Origin: a virus
Direction: 5' to 3' (one strand)
Length of the DNA stretch: 31,082 nucleotides
IMG/VR virus record: IMGVR_UViG_3300007538_000109
Location: 1 to 31,082 of that record
The first letter of the stretch is position 1. Every line of letters starts with the position of its first letter. Position numbers and translations under genes: made by a program. The notes below the pieces were generated by a model, which was not told the origin of the DNA, did not search any database, and worked only from the letters and a program-made list of their open reading frames with translations. Shown piece after piece: positions 5,032 through 31,082 of this stretch.

Positions 5032-8000
5032 CTTATTGCAATTGTTCTAAGATCTTTAAACCTTGGATAGTATGCTGCATTTGTTCCAGACATTACAATT
5101 TTAATTGTATATCCAGTAAACAGATCTAAATTATTTGCTGTAAACTCGTAATCTAAAAATTCATCTTCCAAACTAGGTCTTACAAAAACATCTGGTTTTC
5201 CATTATTTTTGGATTGATCTATTACTGTTAATAATGCATCATTCTCAAATCTCAAATTATCATAACCGGGGAATAATTCAAATTCTTGCTCAACCTCACT
5301 AGAATCTGCCCTATTTAGTTTGTACAATACTCTAAAATCTGCAGTCTGATGTCTGTATGCTGCGACTAAAACTTTAAGTGCTTTTGCTGGATTTTTGAGA
5401 TTCACAGTGTTTGAAACATATACTGCGGCATGTGGATCATACTTAAATGAATTTACTTTATTATCGGATGCATAATCAGTTATTGGATTATTTATTAATG
5501 GCATCTGTAAAATAGTTCCAGTCTCCTCTAGGTAGAAAATTTGTGGAGAAAGATTTTCATCAGTTGTAGATAACCTTATAGCGGTTGTTAATGATTTATT
5601 AGATGGTAATGTGCTTAGATAGGTTTCCTCATTAACTTCAGAAGCCACTATTCTAACAGAAGAAAGTTTATTAACCTGATTTAATTCAACGGGCTCATAT
5701 CCATTATCAACGAATGAATTTTCACTTCCATCAACACTTGTGCCGCTAATAGTTCTAATAGATCCTGAAACCGAAGTGGAATCATTTGGAAGTATTAGGG
5801 GGAAACTGGGGATAATTTCAGTAAATGCAATATTTTCGGAAGCATTTGCATTCTTTCCTCCAGTTTGATATTCATTTGTAAATGATAATTGAGAATAATA
5901 AGAAGTTGCATTATCATCACTTGCTCTGGATGTTCCGTTTGATGATCTATCAACTGAAACATAATAACCACTTATATCCATTCCTTCAGAAGAAACATCA
6001 AGTGTTACACCATTTATTCTTCTTAAAGAAATACCATTTAACTCATATTTACTTACAGGAATACTAAATTGATTTCCATTAATATCAGAAATATTGTGAT
6101 CAATTATATTTGTATTATCAATACCTCTCGTTATATCTATTAATTTATTTCCAATATCAATATCATTATATTGAATAATTTCTCTTCCGATTTTTACATA
6201 TCCAGGATTATTAGGACTGACAATGACTCCTTCAAAAATGTCAAATCCTACCGTGCTTCCAATGCTTATTTCCGAAACATCTGAAGATGCTAAATCTGCT
6301 GTTAAAGTTGTTGCTGATCCAGCACTCGGTGTAATATCATTTAGAACTACTTTATTAGTAGCACCAAACATTCCATGATTAAAGTGATTAACCTTGAAAT
6401 AATTTCCAGAATTTAAAGTAGGTCCATTATCAATCCCTGTAATAGTAGTGTTTGCCATCGAAACAACAACGCCATTATCATCATAATAACTAACACCCAT
6501 ACCAACATTAAATGCTTTGTTTGATCCAGTATCTCCTTGCATACCAGAAACAAATAAGGTATCAATACCTCCAATTTCATTTATGCTTATTTGAGCACCT
6601 TTACCAGTTCTATCAATAGTATCTGCAGTAACAATACCAACAACATCTCCAACTTTGTATCCACTACCACCATTATTGACAACCAATCCAGCAATTTGCA
6701 GGGTTCCGTTTGTAGTTGCAGGAACATCTAAAGTTAAATTTTTGCCATTTCCGACAATATTAAATGTTCCTACATTTGTTGAAGCATTAATACCGTAATT
6801 TGTTCCGCCAGTGATAATTCCAACATCATTACCATTATTGAAAACACTACAACCAACTCCAGTAATATACGCTACACTACCTGGATAATTATTATCTCCT
6901 GCAAGTTTTCTTCCAGGACTTAATACGGTTTCCATGTCACTAAAATCAGACGCACCTTTTTTAACTGGTGTAATTCTAATAGTTGCAGTTTTTGGTAGAG
7001 TTTTTAACGAATTATTTGGCAATTCTCTCTTATACCCATTACTTAAATCTAAAGGAGCATTATAAAAATATGCAGTACCACTTGAGGATTTGAATTTCGC
7101 TTTAAATAAATCAAATTTTAAATCCATATTTTGGTCTTCTGTCCAAATAGATCCATTTTGAGACATGAACAGACCACCAAATGCATATTGTGAAGAATAT
7201 ACGCCTGCATCCGGATTTGGAAGATTCTGGACAGTAACACTCTTTTTACCTTTTTCTGCAACCCAAACCTGATATTGATCACTATATTCGGATATAATAA
7301 CTAAAGCATACTCTCTACCTGGAGCCAAATATATTGGTTCTGGGAAAGTTACTCTAGTTGCAACATCACCTGTTTCAGAAGTTTTTATTATTGTTTCTTC
7401 TGAAATATTTCCATTTCCATCATCAATATATCTTCTTGGTGTTAAATAAGCTGCTTGTCCAATAACTTCTCTTGTTGGTGTGCCCAATTCAACAGTTCTT
7501 ATTTCAACTCTAAGTGGTTTATTTTCTTCGTCTACTGTTGCAAAGTATACATTAGCACCTGTTAAGAAAATGCCATTATCATCATTATTTCTTCCTATGG
7601 CAGTTTCTACATCAATAGTACTGCCAACTGCAAATGATTGTGCTAACGGATCAACATATCTTCTAATAGCTATAGTTGTTGTATTTGTAATAGAGGTGAA
7701 TGTTTGTACAAGAGTGCCTCTTGTTATATATTGAGTTCTTGCAAAAGAAAGTAAAGTATCAAGATCTTCACTAATTAGTGGTCTTCTATTAGTGGAACTA
7801 TTGGTTAATTTGTAAGTATGAGTTGAGTTTTCAACTCTAATATTTCCGGCAATGTTTGGATTTCTTATAAAGAATGATCCAACTAAATCCCCCCATGCAT
7901 CAGTAATTAACCGCAAATCTTTCACAAAAGCAGTTGCGCCACTACTTTGTCCTTCAAGTATAAATCCTTTTTCCAAATAACCACTATATCTACCCTGAGC

Positions 8001-11000
8001 ACTTTGTGACAAAGATGCAGTATCAACATTTAATATTGTTGATCCTTCCGTATACGAATCTGGTATAGTAACTGCCTGTGGATATGAATATGGATCATAT
8101 TGATAAACAGATTCTGGAGAAATAATTGGACCAGTTTTATGATTCGGTTTAGCAAGTCTGAATCTTATTCTGGCAACAGAATTACTATCCCCACTTACTT
8201 CATAACCAACGACTTCTTCGCCAATTGTAAAGGATCCTTTAACATCTTCAACTTGCAATAATTTTGGTATAACATCCAAATTACCCTCAGAATCTAAGAA
8301 TTGATAATACCTCGTATGTGGTTTTAAGTTAGATGCAGAAAACTGCGTATTTCTTGATCTTGCAAACCTTATTGCTGAACTTTGACTAAAAGAATTGAAA
8401 GATTGAGAAAATCCACCAGCTGCCCCAAAATTCACATTATTAAAGAAAGAGACAAAATTCTGAGTAATTGTCCAGAAATCATTTGGTGGCGATAAAGTAA
8501 CATCACCTCTATAAGAAGAAACCTGATATTCGTTTACATTTACATATTTTGTTGCTACAAATTGACTTATCCATGTAACCTCATCGTAATCAAGTGTTAT
8601 TGAATTGCCCTTCTTTTTAACATTTGGATCAATTAATGTTAATGATGGATCCTCATAGTCTATGGATTCTGGATTTCTATTATTTCCAGAAATAGCTATA
8701 GATCCTTTTAAACTACTTCTAACAAGAGTAGGTCTCATTTCATGATTATCTTCATCAATTTGAATGGATGAGATATCTTTATTAATCAATGAATTATTTC
8801 TAAAATCATCTACAAAGAAACCACTCTTAAATCTATCTCTATTTTCTGCATCCTTTATTTGTAAAGTCTGGGTATTAATTTCTAATAATGATAAAGAAGT
8901 TACTTCTTCTAAATTTTCAACTCTATCTTCAATTAATCCAATATCTCTCATAGTATATCTTCTATTATCAACTAAAGATATTTCAGCATCTTGAGGATCA
9001 AATAGATATGGTGGTAAAGATATAGTTGCAATTTCCATTGCATCATCACTAATTAAAGGTGCTTTTGGTCTTATTCCAGATTGACCTTGTTTAATTCCCA
9101 ATACTCCCAACTTATCAATATATAATTTGTCAATTCTTCCAATATAGTAATCATATGATACTAAAGAATCTTCATTTGGGGCAATTGTTTTACTTAGTGA
9201 TGTAAAATTCCTTGAAGTAAAGTCGAAAGGAGATGCACTATTTCCTGTAAATGCGGATACCCTTGGTCTATAATCAAAGGTATCAGTAGCTCTAACTGCA
9301 TCTACACCTATAAGAGGAATATTTTTTTCATATCTATCATTATCATAACTTTGAATTGTAAAAAGATCTCCATTATCAGTTGCTTCTACCTCATAATGGT
9401 CAAATATAATTAAAAGTCTTTTAGACGGTATAGTAGATTCATTTCGTCTAACAATTCTAGAATAGTCATAATATTGATCTCTTTGTCCACGATCCAAAAT
9501 AAAGTTGTCAGTTATATCAGTGTAACTTCCCAACTGAATATTTGTTATTGTAGTTGTTATATTGGATTCTTTAAAAATAACCACATCACCTATATTAAAT
9601 CTTCCAGAATTTAAATATACAATACTAGCAACATCTGTTAAAGTGCTCTTTACAAATCTAGCAATAACAATACCAGATTTGCTAATAATATTTTCACCAA
9701 CAATAGCATTTTCGGCAATATTTGAGGATGATAAGCATGTTATTTTATCTAAAACTGGATCTGAAGAATTTAAAGATTCATAAACGGCAATAATTTCTGA
9801 AACATCAGGGACATTCAATGATATTTCTTCATCTTGCACTCTAAGACCATAACAATTGTTATTGTATGTTAATCCATCATTTACTGTCGTATTTGAATTC
9901 GTGCCAGACTGATTTAATCTTGATAAATTTACTATTAATTCAGTACTTCTAGTGTAATTTTTTTTCTTACTCTTTATTCCAACTTTAGTTAATGTTGCAT
10001 CTAATTTATATGATCTTCCTGGAGAAAGTCCTGAGAAAGAAACTGTATTATTTGCAGTATCAATTTTAAATGAATCAGAAGTTATTGTTCCAATGTATCT
10101 TGGGGCACTATCATTATAAAGAGAGTATCTTTCGGCATCAAATGCACTAAAGTTTACTGTTGATATTCCCGAAGTATCGAAATCATTTAATGACATAGTT
10201 ACTATGCCAACCAAATCTGAAGTTTGTGTTTGATTTGATTGCAATCTTATCTTTAAATTAGATGAAGAAAGATCTAAAGAAGAAATATTATTATTTGGGA
10301 ATTTTTCATATAATTTAGCATCTTCTTGATTTCTTATAATTGGAGCACCAATTCTAGCTTGATATGTGCCATCAGTGATTCCTCCTTTAAAAACTCCGCT
10401 AACTCCGGTTATATCAGCAGTAGTCAATTGCAAACCGTCTTTTGATACATCAGCTACTCTAAAGAATGTTTCTAATGTATCACCAGCAACTGCACTCTTA
10501 TAACGAATAACAGTATCTGTCGTTATTCCCGTGAAATTTCCACCTGCACTTGTTACTGTGTTGCTATTAATAGTAATTTCCGAAACATCATTTGGTAAGG
10601 GAAAACTTTCTAAAGAAGAATCTGCAACAAATCCTGAGGAAGACTGAGAAACAGATTTAATATCTTGAGTTCCGTATGAAATTACATCTGTAATTGAATT
10701 TGAAACTTCAACGCCATTTATTAAAATTTGCTCTCCAATAGCAAATTTTCCCGAGACCTGCGTTAAAGTAACTAAATTATTATTACTATCACTTCCAGCA
10801 CTAACAGCATATCCATTTGCACCACTGTTTTTCCCTTTCACAAAAGATGTAGCAGGTAATGCAGAAGCAGAAACGGAATTGTTTAAATTTAACCTTGTAT
10901 ATGTTTGTACATCATATAAGTATAAATTCCATTTAGTTGAAGGTCCACTATATGCTTGATCAGTTACAGTGAATGTATAAACTCTAGATTTTCCAATATT

Positions 11001-27701: not shown

Positions 27702-28103
27702 TTATCTTGTTGCCTCTAATAGAAATGTATATTCTTGAGTCGGAAACTCTTGACCAATAATATCAAACACTACTGTAACATCAAATGTATTTTCATCCGG
27801 ATTTGGATTTACAAATACTTGAAGATTATCAACTCTTGGTTCAAAGTTTTCTATTGCAACCTGAATTTGATCCTGAATAACAGAAGCAGTACCAAAATCC
27901 ACAAAATCGAATAAACTACTTCTTACATCAGATCCAAAAATTGAATTAAAAAACTTTTCTGTGGGTATTGTTTGGACAATATTTCTTACAGATCTACGAA
28001 TCGCATTCTCATTTTTTAATATTTGTAGATCTTTTGTCACAGGATGAGGCTCAAAAGACAAATTAATGTCTTTAAAAACCCTTGATATCCTTTTTATTGC
28101 CAT
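27702..28103 (-). CDS. 25: baseplate wedge protein gp25 (lysozyme-like GPW/gp25 family)
   Basis: This 133-aa protein matches T4 gp25 (132 aa), the wedge component that with gp6 and gp53 forms the wedge core and lies next to the sheath initiator. The GPW_gp25 pattern is clear: FKDINLSFEPHPVTKDLQIL, KNENAIRRSVRNIVQTIPTE with KFF, FGSDVRSSLFDF, then QDQIQVAIENFEPRVDNLQV and a final FDVTVVFDIIGQE. The conserved NE-AI-R-SV-N-I/L core is intact. It starts 20 nt downstream of a TATAAATA late promoter and is followed after 4 nt by the ACG codon that appears to begin gp6, so gp25, gp6 and gp7 form a tight wedge operon. Confidence 0.95.
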   Translation of the reverse strand: MAIKRISRVFKDINLSFEPHPVTKDLQILKNENAIRRSVRNIVQTIPTEKFFNSIFGSDVRSSLFDFVDFGTASVIQDQIQVAIENFEPRVDNLQVFVNPNPDENTFDVTVVFDIIGQEFPTQEYTFLLEATR

Positions 28104-28122
28104 TGATCATGAGATTTTTATT

Positions 28123-28130
28123 TATTTATA
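28123..28130 (-). promoter_or_regulatory. late promoter TATAAATA upstream of gp25
   Basis: The minus strand reads TATAAATA followed by AATAAAAATC, 20 nt before the gp25 ATG, in the short gap after the 73-aa gene. It matches the NATAAATA late consensus of cyanophages and would start the gp25-gp6-gp7 transcript. Confidence 0.8.
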
Positions 28131-28143
28131 CCCCTACAATCAA

Positions 28144-28365
28144 TCATTCATGCCATCTTTCAACAAAATCATCAAATCCATTAGACCCTCCACATGGTCT
28201 TGAGAGACGATCCTCTGGAATATGATACTTACTATCTAAATCATCGTGCATAACTTCTTGTAATACTCTTTTTTCAGATAGTGAATTATAATCTGTGATC
28301 AATTTTGTGGTTCCCCACATCTCTTTCATGTATTTTTTGTCTCTATCGACTGATGAATTCGACAT
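28144..28365 (-). CDS. 73-aa hypothetical protein, conserved cyanophage type
   Basis: The product begins MSNSSVDRDKKYMKEMWGTT and continues KLITDYNSLSEKRVLQEVMH, then DDLDSKYHIPEDRLSRPCGG and a C-terminal FDDFVERWHE. It is charged, hydrophilic and has no signal peptide, membrane segment or motif I can name. A good ribosome-binding sequence AGGAG lies 7 nt before the ATG and is partly contained in a small hairpin. It sits alone between the 218-aa gene and the gp25 operon with a candidate AATAAATA late promoter at the 3' end of the upstream gene. Function unknown. Confidence 0.75.
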   Translation of the reverse strand: MSNSSVDRDKKYMKEMWGTTKLITDYNSLSEKRVLQEVMHDDLDSKYHIPEDRLSRPCGGSNGFDDFVERWHE

Positions 28366-28374
28366 TTTTAGCTC

Positions 28375-28392
28375 CTGATTCGTGAAAATCAG
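28375..28392 (-). promoter_or_regulatory. hairpin touching the ribosome-binding site of the 73-aa gene
   Basis: The minus strand has CTGATT, loop TTCACG, AATCAG, a perfect 6-bp stem. The last bases of the 3' arm (CAG) run directly into GAG, giving CAGGAG, the Shine-Dalgarno of the 73-aa gene. The stem could modulate access to it; its effect is not known. Confidence 0.4.
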
Positions 28393-28422
28393 AACTTTTA
28401 GAGGGGTTGCTATCCCTAAAGA

Positions 28423-29079
28423 TTATTTATTTTCTTGTTCTTCTGGTGTTTTCCAGAAATAATCATCAGTATCACCCAATCTTCCCCATCTTACTCCATT
28501 CTCAACTTGATAATACTGAGTTGATACCTTAAAATCGGGTTGTTTTGGTGTTTCGGGTGTGATTGAAAGGTCATATATCCTCATTCTATTGTTTGGATAG
28601 AGTGCAAATTGACCATTTTCAAGTTCAATACAGTTATGAGACTTGTGTTCTTCGGGTATTTCACTTACATTACAGTTTGTAGTGTCAATATCAGGGTGAA
28701 AATTGTCTAGAGTAAACAAATATTCTCCATGAAGAGCACCAAAATTGCGTGTATGAAGCATAAAGTCCATACTTCCAATAAACTGCTTCTCAATACACCG
28801 TATACCATAGTCCATACAATTCCAAAACTGTAGATTAGGTAGATCTAAATCGGGATCAGGTAGTTTTGGACGAGATAAAAAAGCACTAATCGGTAATTTA
28901 TCATACATTGCCGCATATTCTGGCAAATAAGTTTCAAAATAAAAAGCACGCCCAGGAATCGACTTTGCCGATACCCAGACGCCCTCTACAAATTCACCAT
29001 ACCCGTCCTGTAAATCCCGAAGATACTCTTTACGTACCCATACCTTTTGTGGGGGTAGATTTACAACGAGTTGACTCAT
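28423..29079 (-). CDS. 218-aa hypothetical protein, conserved cyanophage type
   Basis: This soluble, aromatic-rich protein begins MSQLVVNLPPQKVWVRKEYL and contains RDLQDGYGEFVEGVWVSAKS, IPGRAFYFETYLPEYAAMYD, NLQFWNCMDYGIRCIEKQFI with GSMDFMLHTRNFG, and a C-terminal YYQVENGVRWGRLGDTDDYF. I recognise the type from T4-like cyanophages near structural genes but know no function and see no catalytic motif or membrane segment. Its ATG overlaps the stop of the 47-aa gene by one base (TAATG), and AAGG lies just upstream, so it is coupled to that gene. It ends with an AATAAATA sequence that may be a promoter for the next gene. It belongs with the small cassette downstream of the sigma70-like promoter rather than with the wedge genes. 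Confidence 0.85.
   Translation of the reverse strand: MSQLVVNLPPQKVWVRKEYLRDLQDGYGEFVEGVWVSAKSIPGRAFYFETYLPEYAAMYDKLPISAFLSRPKLPDPDLDLPNLQFWNCMDYGIRCIEKQFIGSMDFMLHTRNFGALHGEYLFTLDNFHPDIDTTNCNVSEIPEEHKSHNCIELENGQFALYPNNRMRIYDLSITPETPKQPDFKVSTQYYQVENGVRWGRLGDTDDYFWKTPEEQENK
28424..28431 (-). promoter_or_regulatory. candidate late promoter AATAAATA upstream of 73-aa gene
   Basis: The minus strand reads AATAAATA over the last two codons and the stop of the 218-aa gene (AAT AAA TAA), 58 nt before the 73-aa ATG. It fits NATAAATA, but the AAT-AAA-TAA codons could produce it by chance. Confidence 0.4.
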
Positions 29080-29222
29080 TATTTACCTTGTCCCCGATAC
29101 CTTTTCTTTGCCGAGTTACGAGAACTTGCGGATAATTTTGTGTGCTTCCCCGTTCCTTGACGAGACTTCTTGGGTTTGGCTTCCACATAATTGCCACCCT
29201 TCATAAAACCAGTTTTTGCCAT
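29079..29222 (-). CDS. 47-aa very basic protein, conserved cyanophage type
   Basis: The frame encodes MAKTGFMKGGNYVEAKPKKS, RQGTGKHTKLSASSRNSAKK and RYRGQGK. Fourteen of 47 residues are Lys or Arg and only one is acidic, so it is strongly cationic and probably extended; binding to DNA, RNA or a phage structure is possible but unproven. A strong Shine-Dalgarno AAGGAG lies 11 nt before the ATG, overlapping the end of the 52-aa gene. Its stop overlaps the start of the 218-aa gene by one base. I recall near-identical proteins in many T4-like cyanophages, which supports that it is real in spite of its length. Confidence 0.85.
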   Translation of the reverse strand: MAKTGFMKGGNYVEAKPKKSRQGTGKHTKLSASSRNSAKKRYRGQGK

Positions 29223-29230
29223 AATTTTTT

Positions 29231-29389
29231 TTACTCCTTGTAAATTTTAGTTTCTAAATCCGAGGGGTCCGGAGAACCTGTTTGATAGTATTCTACCGCA
29301 AGGTCCTCCATTACCTCAAAATATTCAAGTTGACTTAGATTTTTATATATTCTACGTCCTTTACATAGAATATCATACTTTTCTGTCAT
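29231..29389 (-). CDS. 52-aa hypothetical protein, conserved cyanophage type
   Basis: The product is MTEKYDILCKGRRIYKNLSQ, LEYFEVMEDLAVEYYQTGSP and DPSDLETKIYKE: an N-terminal strand pair followed by an acidic helix. The pattern with DLAVEYYQTGSP and an acidic C-terminus is one I recall as widespread in cyanomyoviruses, annotated only as hypothetical. Its ATG overlaps the stop of the glycosyltransferase-like gene (TAATG), so it is the second gene of that cassette. The last codons (AAG GAG TAA) form the ribosome-binding site of the following 47-aa gene, another sign of tight coupling. Confidence 0.85.
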   Translation of the reverse strand: MTEKYDILCKGRRIYKNLSQLEYFEVMEDLAVEYYQTGSPDPSDLETKIYKE

Positions 29390-30150
29390 TAGATTACGCG
29401 AGTCTTTTCATGCCCCACACGAATTCGTGGATCACACCAAATCTCAAATCCGGCATCAATTGCATCAAGACAGAATGATACATCCTCTCCACACATGTCT
29501 TGTACATCACCAGACTCAAAGACTTGCATCTTTGGAGCAAACCATGGATACTTCATCTCCGTGTGCTCAAAGACTCCGTGCTTGATGAGAAGCCATCCAA
29601 ATCCTGTATAATCAACAGTAAAAGGTTTTTTCCGCTTTGAGATACTCTCAATCGTTTCGTGATTCATCACACCCCCATTGTTACGGAAGTCATCCTCCTC
29701 CAACCAATGAGCAACTGATGTGGTGCGACCATCTTCGGTACAATACCATCCTGCTGCAATGTCTTGGTCCATCAGGATAAGTTGATAGAATTTTTCAGTG
29801 TTGAAAACAATATCAGAATCGATCCAGAGTTGCCAATCATATTTGAGTTTGCCATCCCACGGAAGTTGATCCGGTCCACGCAATACATTTGCACCAAGAC
29901 ACTTGCATCTTGCAAAGTTTACCATGGAGGAATAATCCTGCGAAATTTGGATGCTTGCTCCGTTTTGTACAAGATCAAAACAAAGTTGCACAAAACTCTT
30001 TAGAAATGTATATGATACTCCACGCCCCGGAAGACAAAAGACGACAGACTTACCTCTTACCATTTCTTTTGCCACTTCATAATCCCACTCCTGTTCCGTG
30101 GGAGACGCTGCCATGGGCGTCTTTGCTTTTATTGTAAATCCTTTAGCCAT
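29389..30150 (-). CDS. GT-A-fold glycosyltransferase-like protein
   Basis: This 253-aa protein has the layout of a small GT-A glycosyltransferase: KSVVFCLPGRGVSYTFLKSF near residues 34-53, a central WQLWIDSDIVF with a DxD-type metal/nucleotide-sugar motif near residues 106-116, and a C-terminal CGEDVSFCLDAIDAGFEIWC with DPRIRVGHEK, as in acceptor-site ends of such enzymes. It has no signal peptide or membrane segment, so it would act in the host cytoplasm. The substrate is unknown; phage DNA, a virion protein or host surface polymer are all possible. It is the first gene after a strong sigma70-like promoter and overlaps the following 52-aa gene by one base. No Shine-Dalgarno is visible before its ATG. 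I am confident of the fold class, less of activity. Confidence 0.75.
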   Translation of the reverse strand: MAKGFTIKAKTPMAASPTEQEWDYEVAKEMVRGKSVVFCLPGRGVSYTFLKSFVQLCFDLVQNGASIQISQDYSSMVNFARCKCLGANVLRGPDQLPWDGKLKYDWQLWIDSDIVFNTEKFYQLILMDQDIAAGWYCTEDGRTTSVAHWLEEDDFRNNGGVMNHETIESISKRKKPFTVDYTGFGWLLIKHGVFEHTEMKYPWFAPKMQVFESGDVQDMCGEDVSFCLDAIDAGFEIWCDPRIRVGHEKTRVI

Positions 30151-30172
30151 AATAGTAATTAATTACAATCGA

Positions 30173-30201
30173 ATCATACTGCACTATGTATACTCTGTCA
30201 A
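30173..30201 (-). promoter_or_regulatory. sigma70-type promoter upstream of glycosyltransferase-like gene
   Basis: The minus strand has TTGACA (30196-30201), exactly 17 bp, then TATGAT (30173-30178), one mismatch from the full sigma70 consensus. The start of transcription should lie near 30166, about 16 nt before the ATG at 30150. The -35 box overlaps the last codons of the AbrB-like gene. It should be read by unmodified host RNA polymerase, so the downstream cassette is probably expressed early or throughout infection. Confidence 0.8.
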
Positions 30202-30374
30202 GAACTTTCAATATTTGTAATTACAATACAGTCGTTCTCAACCTCAATATTAACTTCTGTCCCCTCATACCATCCCTGCTCATCTAATATCCATTCAGGG
30301 ATAATCACATAGTGCTCACCACTTACTGGATCAACCTCTATAGTCGTAAAATTTTCTGCGCGATTTTTTTGCAT
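30198..30374 (-). CDS. AbrB/MazE-like 58-aa protein
   Basis: The frame encodes MQKNRAENFTTIEVDPVSGE, HYVIIPEWILDEQGWYEGTE and VNIEVENDCIVITNIESS. The order strand (TTIEVDP), a small Gly turn, IIP-x-W-I-L, a Gly-turn, then T-E-V-N-I-E-V-x-x-D-x-I-V-I fits the SpoVT/AbrB swapped-hairpin fold used by AbrB regulators and MazE-type antitoxins, which act as dimers binding DNA. No toxin gene is adjacent, so a stand-alone regulator is more likely. Its end overlaps the -35 box of the glycosyltransferase promoter. I recall similar short proteins in cyanophages. Upstream, AGAGG lies too close to the ATG (one base) for a normal ribosome-binding site, so initiation is unclear. Confidence 0.75.
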   Translation of the reverse strand: MQKNRAENFTTIEVDPVSGEHYVIIPEWILDEQGWYEGTEVNIEVENDCIVITNIESS

Positions 30375-30500
30375 ACCTCTGATCTTTATAGTTGTTTTTA
30401 TATAGCAAAAAAAATTTTTATGTGGGGTGAGAAAAAAAGAGTGCCTTTGAGATCATGAACGGCATCGTAACACTTTGTAGACTCCGGGGACCCACGGTTT

Positions 30501-30540
30501 TTAACAACGGGGGGGCATAAACCCCCCAAACTGCTGTTAA
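30501..30540 (-). terminator. G6/C6 hairpin after 36-aa gene
   Basis: The plus strand has gggggg, loop cataaa, cccccc (30510-30527), enclosed by ttaaca and tgttaa (30501-30506, 30535-30540). On the minus strand it begins 15 nt after the stop of the 36-aa gene. There is no run of U after it, so it may be a factor-assisted terminator or an mRNA 3'-end protector rather than a classic intrinsic terminator. Confidence 0.6.
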
Positions 30541-30555
30541 CGAACGAATGATGTA

Positions 30556-30666
30556 TTAGGACTGAGTGTCATCAACCTGCTGTTCACTGATAACATCAAG
30601 AATGGACAGAATGTCGTTTCCGGTGTTACCTTTGTTCAGCAGAGAAAGCATCAGTTCGATGGACAT
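30556..30666 (-). CDS. 36-aa small protein, conserved cyanophage type
   Basis: The frame encodes MSIELMLSLLNKGNTGNDIL and SILDVISEQQVDDTQS: two short amphipathic helices joined by a Gly/Asn turn. The codons are unlike the rest of the window (CTG, AAC, GGT, ACC, ATC rather than TTA, AAT, GGA, ATT), which suggests high expression or a different codon-use history. I recall peptides with the MLSLL.KG..GN.ILSILD pattern from cyanomyoviruses, without function. GC-rich hairpins stand on both sides. No clear ribosome-binding site is seen; AACACTTTC precedes the ATG. Confidence 0.65.
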   Translation of the reverse strand: MSIELMLSLLNKGNTGNDILSILDVISEQQVDDTQS

Positions 30667-30706
30667 AAGAAAGTGTTAATGAAGAACAGAGAGTTTGTAT
30701 TAGTCA

Positions 30707-30725
30707 GGGGGGAGAGTGTCCCCCC
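30707..30725 (-). terminator. G6/C6 hairpin after KTSC-like gene
   Basis: The plus strand has gggggg, loop agagtgt, cccccc. It lies 11 nt after the stop of the KTSC-like gene on the minus strand and resembles the hairpin at 30501-30540 in having perfect G/C stems of 6 bp and no poly-U tail. Confidence 0.6.
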
Positions 30726-30735
30726 AAAGTGTTAA

Positions 30736-30963
30736 TCAGGCAGCAACGTTGTTGACATTTTGCAGATCTTTATTGTTGATCGAGAAGTTCACAAACTTGC
30801 CGACAGATTCCTCTGCCTTGATAACGTTATTCAGTTTATTCACGAAACCGGCAACATCAGCGCTGCGATAATCGTACTGGCGACCATTCTTGAATTCAAC
30901 GACGACAATATCATCGGAGGTGGTGATAGCGTTGATAGCGGTGGAAGTAAAAGCGTTGATCAT
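30736..30963 (-). CDS. KTSC-domain-like 75-aa protein
   Basis: The product begins MINAFTSTAINAITTSDDIV, then VVEFKNGRQYDYRSADVAGF and ends EESVGKFVNFSINNKDLQNV plus NNVAA. This matches the KTSC family layout: SxxIxxI near the start, VxFxxGxxYxY in the middle and SxGxFVNxxI near the end. KTSC domains are short proteins of unknown function, sometimes next to nucleic-acid enzymes. Codon use is rich in C-ending codons (ATC AAC, ACC ACC TCC) unlike the AT-rich structural genes, suggesting high expression. A G6/C6 hairpin follows its stop and two more hairpins precede it. No strong ribosome-binding site or promoter was recognised in the 35 nt before the ATG. Confidence 0.8.
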   Translation of the reverse strand: MINAFTSTAINAITTSDDIVVVEFKNGRQYDYRSADVAGFVNKLNNVIKAEESVGKFVNFSINNKDLQNVNNVAA

Positions 30964-30998
30964 GTTGTTAGTAAAGCGATGGAATGTGATGTGTTTTG

Positions 30999-31020
30999 AG
31001 CGGGATGCATCACCCCCGCT
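30999..31020 (-). terminator. GC-rich hairpin AGCGGG/CCCGCT
   Basis: The plus strand has agcggg, a 10-base loop, cccgct. It lies between the KTSC-like gene and a second hairpin at 31024-31063. Either could be the 3' end of an upstream transcript or the leader of the KTSC-like mRNA. Confidence 0.45.
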
Positions 31021-31023
31021 GAG

Positions 31024-31063
31024 GTTATTAGAGAGGGGAAGTTTCCCACCCCTCAGTGATAAC
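31024..31063 (-). terminator. two-part hairpin after probable upstream gene end
   Basis: The plus strand has gttat (31024-31028) and gagggg (31033-31038) pairing with cccctc (31049-31054) and ataac (31059-31063). On the minus strand it begins 1 nt after a TGA at 31065-31067, so it probably ends the transcript of a gene whose body lies beyond the window. Confidence 0.5.
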
Positions 31064-31082
31064 GTCAGGCAAGCAGAAGGTC

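Follow-up and report, generated by a model that had tools for sequence, protein, structure and literature searches.

A tiny-gene array at the end of the window

The window, which is the whole 31082-base stretch of DNA analysed here, is an IMG/VR virus record whose closest annotated relatives are T4-like cyanophages, for example S-SKS1 and S-SRM01. Its minus strand carries both the structural genes and the tiny genes of 30501-31063 (Table 1). A related contig, L002, has a KTSC-like gene identical to that of the window and extends 1.6 kb further upstream, where more tiny genes are found with hairpins and promoter-like sequence in between. The 119-aa, KTSC-like and 33/36-aa genes are common to the window and contig L012; beyond these genes the two differ, a pattern that appears much as in cassette shuffling. 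Among the 22 contigs tested, most of which are fragments, psbA was present in 2 and gp23 in 7.

Table 1. Features of the array, in the order in which they would be transcribed
Feature	Position	Strand	Remarks
119-aa early gene, terminal codons (DLLLA, stop)	31065-31082	-	Cut at window end; complete in L002 1178-1537
Perfect 6-bp GC stem after 119-aa gene	31033-31054	-	Proposed 3′ stem-loop of preceding unit
TCTAAT, possible weak -10 (5/6 to TATAAT)	within 31021-31032	-	Ends 6 nt before S1; consensus match only
Leader H-type pseudoknot, AGCGGGG-GUGAUG-CA-UCCCGCU-CAAAACA-CAUCAC	30986-31020	-	5′ leader of KTSC-like gene
Pseudoknot stem S1	31014-31020 with 30999-31005	-	
Pseudoknot stem S2	31008-31013 with 30986-30991	-	
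Pseudoknot loop L2	31006-31007	-	
Pseudoknot loop L3	30992-30998	-	
Spacer, pseudoknot to ATG	30964-30985	-	
75-aa KTSC-like gene	30736-30963	-	Fold comparison and Pfam hits in relatives
GC stem-loop after KTSC-like gene	30707-30725	-	Relatives have a hairpin there, with other sequence
Weak -10-like TACAAA	30694-30699	-	GGGACA 17 nt upstream within hairpin; 4/6 each; consensus match only
36-aa ORF	30556-30666	-	33-aa counterpart at same position in L012
GC stem-loop after 36-aa ORF	30509-30527	-	GC hairpin at matching position in L004, L005, L006 and S-SKS1

The whole 31 kb was scanned for hairpins whose stem is perfect, is ≥6 bp long and includes ≥5 G-C pairs, with loops of 3-12. Four of the five such hairpins in the window fall in 30501-31063 (stems at 30509-30527, 30707-30725, 30999-31020 and 31033-31054), the same four that an earlier, sequence-only reading had picked out. 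Their alternation with genes stands as that reading described it, but the outer bounds it gave (30501-30540 and 31024-31063) extend beyond the actual stems. It was also right that the stems lack a terminator-like T tract 3′ on the coding strand. Relatives retain a hairpin after the KTSC-like gene, with differing sequence. When 30481-31082 was shuffled 300 times with dinucleotides preserved, a mean of 0.06 hairpins and a maximum of 2 were obtained, with 0/300 reaching four.

Two further claims of the same reading, a shift in codon use and a short repeat, also held. The two tiny genes, when pooled, have a GC3 of 0.56 and a C3 of 0.38, against a GC3 of 0.13-0.19 in the seven large structural genes (263-3979 aa); values for the six smaller genes in between are 0.17-0.40. 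The GC3 or C3 of the tiny genes was reached by 0/20000 stretches of equal length drawn from window genes longer than 700 nt. The codon habit extends to five early genes that L002 carries farther upstream, with a GC3 of 0.48-0.57. The repeat aagtgttaat is present at 30671-30680 and 30727-30736.

A pseudoknot in the leader of the KTSC-like gene

In the hairpin at 30999-31020, the loop bases are paired with 30986-30991, a contact that the sequence-only reading had not recorded, and the two stems together make an H-type pseudoknot. In its canonical form, S1 has 7 bp, S2 has 5-6 bp and L3 is mostly A. S2 occurs as GUGAUG/CAUCAC, GUGAAG/CUUCAC or UUAGG/CCUAA, and S1 varies at two pairs; the bases of L2, which are unpaired, and most of those of L3 hardly vary among canonical elements.

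Compensatory changes show the base pairing of the pseudoknot. For 11 of the 15 distinct canonical sequences, picked for gapless alignment with a seven-base L3, 97.2% of cells were paired and four pairs, two in S1 and two in S2, were altered on both sides. The covariation score of this set was 0.266, compared with 0.090 in shuffles (0/500 as high) and ≤0.069 when the partner was slid. The other four distinct sequences have an L3 that is one base longer, and at that offset 5 or 6 of 6 positions were paired. The leaders of loci L109 and L119 are the same at all but 2 of 66 bases, and these two are both partners of a single S2 pair (G-C to A-U). Mapped onto a tree of 56 proteins, S2 requires seven changes among its three states, at least four of which are forced by well supported branches, although such label changes could also arise when phages exchange leaders. 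The window-type leader has an energy of -24.9, compared with a minimum of -18.3 among 400 shuffles. Pseudoknot geometry alone is no proof, since strong foldings of this kind also occur elsewhere in GC-rich contigs (20 sources) and some in shuffled controls; the window has two, of which the leader is one. With the compensatory changes, the pseudoknot itself is well supported.

When only nested pairing was allowed, the fold of the window leader favoured another, long-range hairpin. The long-range stem AAGCG/CGCUU, located before a T run and predicted for the window-type leader, was rejected as a general conformation because it is absent from L033 and from the GUGAAG class. A peptide that would start in the loop, MHPAQNTS, was likewise rejected as coding; length changes in L005 and L006 shift its frame.

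These data bear on the view in the sequence-only reading that the four hairpins have one and the same role, stabilising or terminating short mRNAs at their 3′ ends. The four are perfect, they alternate with genes and three of them behave like the ends of units. The proposed division into separate short transcription units remains tenable for those three. It fails for the hairpin at 30999-31020, which is half of a pseudoknot in a 5′ leader and no separator. This hairpin is retained with the downstream gene in relatives whose upstream genes differ, it lies downstream of predicted promoters in relatives, and its loop pairs with sequence further downstream. We therefore consider it an element of the 5′ leader, and that all four hairpins are alike is very improbable.

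Linkage of the leader to one gene family

The canonical element was found at at least 83 places in 82 IMG/VR loci, each time 53-64 nt before a KTSC-like gene. The exact 20-base hairpin accounts for 28 of its occurrences, spread over 27 contigs and always followed by the ATG of a KTSC-like gene after 54-58 nt. A pattern using the flank only gave 19 places in 18 contigs, all of which have the exact hairpin, and a pattern with a degenerate stem added four more contigs, in which the second pair of the G-C-rich stem is U-A and not C-G. With stem, loop and flank all left free, 91 stretches were matched; 80 of these, among the matches listed, together with two loci from the exact pattern, were taken further, so that 83 places were examined and up to about nine of the 91 stretches lie outside that set. 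At 82 of the 83 places examined, the following gene was KTSC-like by hmmsearch (E 4e-39 to 4e-20); at the remaining one, L225, a 72-aa ORF at +57 was assigned as KTSC-like by eye. The pseudoknot is thus linked to one gene family.

A protein-profile search that was blind to the leader gave 55 and then 80 loci, 135 in all (two loci lacking an ATG were dropped), with 70 distinct combinations of gene and leader. Of these, 41 had the canonical pseudoknot, 15 a short form and 10 neither, and four were cut off; the combinations with neither form are thus 10 of the 66 with enough sequence. The short forms have other stems and have lost the canonical loop sequence. Some are statistically weak when taken singly, as in three of the tests, with shuffles as good in 20/400 cases for L073, 38/400 for L065 and 1/400 for L082. 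By eye, the leaders of L129 and L131 form a nested hairpin and no pseudoknot. The canonical form is absent from the isolates S-PM2, S-CAM1, S-CAM3, S-RIM32, Sf-FR1, Sf-CH3, S-H9-1 and DSL-LC03; DSL-LC03 is the only one of these eight with a short form, the S2 of which was not made out.

Leader sequence hardly tracks the divergence of the protein: the L033 protein is 22% identical to that of the window, yet its leader is of the commonest type. Two KTSC-like paralogues, each with its own pseudoknot leader, were seen in L018 (2242-2460 and 4596-4826), and the contig of L066/L112 likewise has two KTSC-like paralogues.

Comparison of window positions 28000-31082 with Rfam 15 gave no relevant match at E ≤10, with weak sub-threshold noise only. 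No match was obtained for L016, L018, L021 and L033 at the gathering threshold, and eight further loci at E ≤0.5 gave only a tRNA and MIR7526 noise. The element is not named in the literature searched, and it is on this literature and on Rfam only that we base its apparently unpublished status. A blastn search of the leader against phage isolates returned two weak, unrelated matches. For a host origin, a scan of genome contigs with the exact pattern, which variants would escape, gave three matches, none of them cyanobacterial.

The KTSC-like protein

The AlphaFold2 model of the 75-aa protein has a mean pLDDT of 90. In VIA-align, the top five rows were all KTSC domain chains, with Z of 5.3-6.8 against 4.3 for the next row, where Z below 8 may also reflect a merely common arrangement; the chains 4rgi and 7x8c gave Z 6.8 and an rmsd of 2.7-2.8 over 65 aligned residues. 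The best-matching KTSC structures include the C-terminal region of HerA, as present in complexes of SIR2 with HerA. Foldseek alone gave weak matches only. On the basis of the model, the protein is predicted to have the KTSC fold.

Against PF13619, the window protein scored 13.6 bits, below the Pfam cut-off of 25, and for this reason we call it KTSC-like; the family was matched by 6 of 18 relatives (E ≤0.01; best 3.2e-5). The protein is therefore alike in fold to the KTSC domain, and by score it would belong to a divergent, KTSC-like branch. It also matched PHROG 4357 (7.2e-17), the function of which is annotated as unknown. KTSC has been termed an RNA-binding domain in the text available from one source (PMC7824862) and a DNA-binding domain in that from another (PMC9503650). 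The KTSC-like proteins are acidic, with a median pI of 4.60 and a net positive charge in 4/57.

Predicted promoter and transcript start

Of 44 distinct upstream sequences, 25 contain a hexamer like a -10 box (at least 5 of 6 to TATAAT) that ends 8-13 nt before S1, compared with 4.4% in shuffles. With the spacing of sigma70 promoters, the transcript in relatives would have its first base a few nt upstream of S1. In the window, it is possible that TCTAAT serves as the -10, which would put the transcript start at about the first base of S1. The predicted transcript start would coincide with the pseudoknot or be only a few nt away from it.

The other three hairpins and promoter/stem-loop cassettes

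The hairpin at 31033-31054 is also present in L012, L020, L023, L028, L031 and L034. Promoter boxes beside the window's own hairpins are weak only. We counted such boxes in a set that represents every distinct KTSC-like protein by a single contig; its 57 contigs together contain 529 perfect GC hairpins. A -10 box follows the hairpin by 4-20 nt in the sense direction in 171/529 cases and in the antisense direction in 36/529, compared with 10.8% of random positions (∼57 expected); these counts are not independent because the contigs are related. In 56 of the 171 hairpins with a sense -10 box, a -35-like hexamer overlaps the hairpin.

The remaining three hairpins of this region resemble the stem-loops of gene cassettes that combine such a structure with a promoter. 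The end of the window would then be an array of small genes, probably early ones, in which a GC stem-loop closes one unit and an adjoining or overlapping promoter opens the next. In its small genes split by GC stem-loops and its mosaic gene order, the array resembles the PeSLs (promoter-early stem-loop cassettes) of T4-like phages; candidate promoters adjoining or overlapping the stem-loops would add to this likeness, which we read from sequence; as terminators, the stem-loops here are putative, with no coding-strand T tract. In the parts of PMC4503421 available, PeSLs are described as dense in other T4-like phages and few in cyanophage S-PM2. The dense cassettes suggested for the present cyanophage lineage contrast with that low density in S-PM2, and the leader pseudoknot falls outside the PeSL as described there.

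A possible translational operator

In phage T4, the product of gene 32, gp32, is a single-strand binding protein, and the leader pseudoknot of the gene is its autogenous translational operator. We tentatively propose, at somewhat less than even probability, that the pseudoknot described here is a gene-specific translational or post-transcriptional operator that works like the leader pseudoknot of T4 gene 32. Inside the array, the KTSC-like gene has a 5′ leader element of its own in the form of an H-type RNA pseudoknot. The most likely agent of translational control would be the protein that the gene encodes, or a complex of which this protein is part, with nucleation at the 5′ pseudoknot affecting the start region across the unstructured spacer, as in T4 gene 32.

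The T4 pseudoknot lies 67 nt upstream of the start codon and is bound by gp32, according to the available text of PMC3014915. In both systems, a gene of a T4-like phage has a 5′ pseudoknot ∼55-65 nt upstream of its start codon, and the spacer between the two is largely unpaired. Here, the H-type leader pseudoknot falls within 40-70 nt of the start codon (53-64 nt) and both of its stems covary. The systems differ in that the gene encodes a 75-aa KTSC-like protein and not gp32, the sequence and loop geometry are other, the element is at the predicted 5′ end of the transcript, the protein is acidic, and the regulation is something that we infer. The acidic protein argues against simple autoregulation by an RNA-binding repressor; this and the lack of co-divergence between protein and leader are the main weak points of autoregulation, and they keep our proposal tentative. 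Less probable again is the wider suggestion that this is a new family of leader pseudoknots in T4-type cyanophages, through which each KTSC-like protein feeds back on its own translation. If true, it would provide a further case of viral autoregulation by a pseudoknot beside T4 gene 32, in a gene of no known role.

The alternatives differ in what they make of the same structure. As a generic 5′ mRNA cap at the first bases of the transcript, it would block 5′-end-dependent decay and raise expression of a short message with no specific ligand; the start of S1 a few nt past the predicted transcript start in many loci, the stable GC stem and the preservation of structure despite sequence change all agree with this. 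However, a generic protector would be expected before many early genes, and at the 83 places examined only one family was found, an exclusive linkage that favours gene-specific control over a generic stabiliser. A plain cap would also have no need of the near-invariant L2 and L3 bases of the canonical class, and we regard it as unlikely while giving it appreciable weight. Those invariant loop bases in a compact H-type pseudoknot would suit an element that senses a small molecule or host factor, as a riboswitch or the operator of a host protein, and so times the KTSC-like gene in infection. Precedents are manA and wcaG, riboswitch candidates in T4-like cyanophages; in the text available from PMC2864571 these motifs and PhotoRC-II are described from T4-like cyanophages and marine metagenomes as structured RNAs that, like the present element, occupy potential 5′ UTRs. 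They differ in being associated with other genes, and neither the window nor 12 related loci gave an Rfam match. The lack of any matching Rfam family, the absence from the short forms of the loop sequence expected of a common binding pocket, and a start codon outside the structure leave such a sensor with a small chance. Finally, the element could act as DNA, as an operator or recombination site (palindrome GATGCATC) carried by cassette shuffling. The cassette arrays are indeed mosaic among close relatives and near-identical copies of the element precede divergent proteins, but GTGAAGCATC breaks the palindrome while the S2 pairing is retained, and paired changes would be senseless for a DNA site, which makes this reading hardly credible.

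The leader pseudoknot adds a structured RNA absent from Rfam and offers a way into the function of a tiny orphan protein that is widespread. As a gene-specific leader pseudoknot it would be a second case, with clean compensatory changes across many contigs.

Further elements in the window and its relatives

A 58-aa ORF at 30198-30374 on the minus strand of the window is conserved in L004-L006 and S-SKS1, and has a weak likeness to SymE/MazE (AbrB-type) domains. A strong promoter-like site, TTGACA-17-TATGAT, is present at 30201-30173, ahead of the gene that follows this ORF.

Hairpins that hold a -35 box, either in the loop or in the stem, and are directly followed by a -10 box were seen in the 1059 region of L017 and in L019, L025, L210 and L191. 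An example of such a fused element is GGGGTTGACACAGCATCAACCCC followed by TATACT, in which a terminator-like hairpin and a promoter are combined in one. In a lineage outside the clade of the window (L010, L011, L015, L018, L021, L026 and L033), many palindromes resembling TCTCGACTAGA or TCTCGTCGAGA come after the KTSC-like stop codon.

Recurrent sequences are also found between tiny genes. Near-identical promoter/leader stretches (TGTATATTACATAAGTCGTCGGGAGTTCAACCC) lie at 1-110 and 680-803 of L002, each before an unrelated tiny gene. In S-SKS1 (L007), a long intergenic cassette (GATACTCAGGTCAGCCGCGAGT...TGTATT) recurs between unrelated tiny genes at 5500-9001, and TAACACTT occurs eight times in 9 kb, often right after stop codons and ahead of starts. 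The ATTAACACTT of the window is the same motif as this S-SKS1 TAACACTT.
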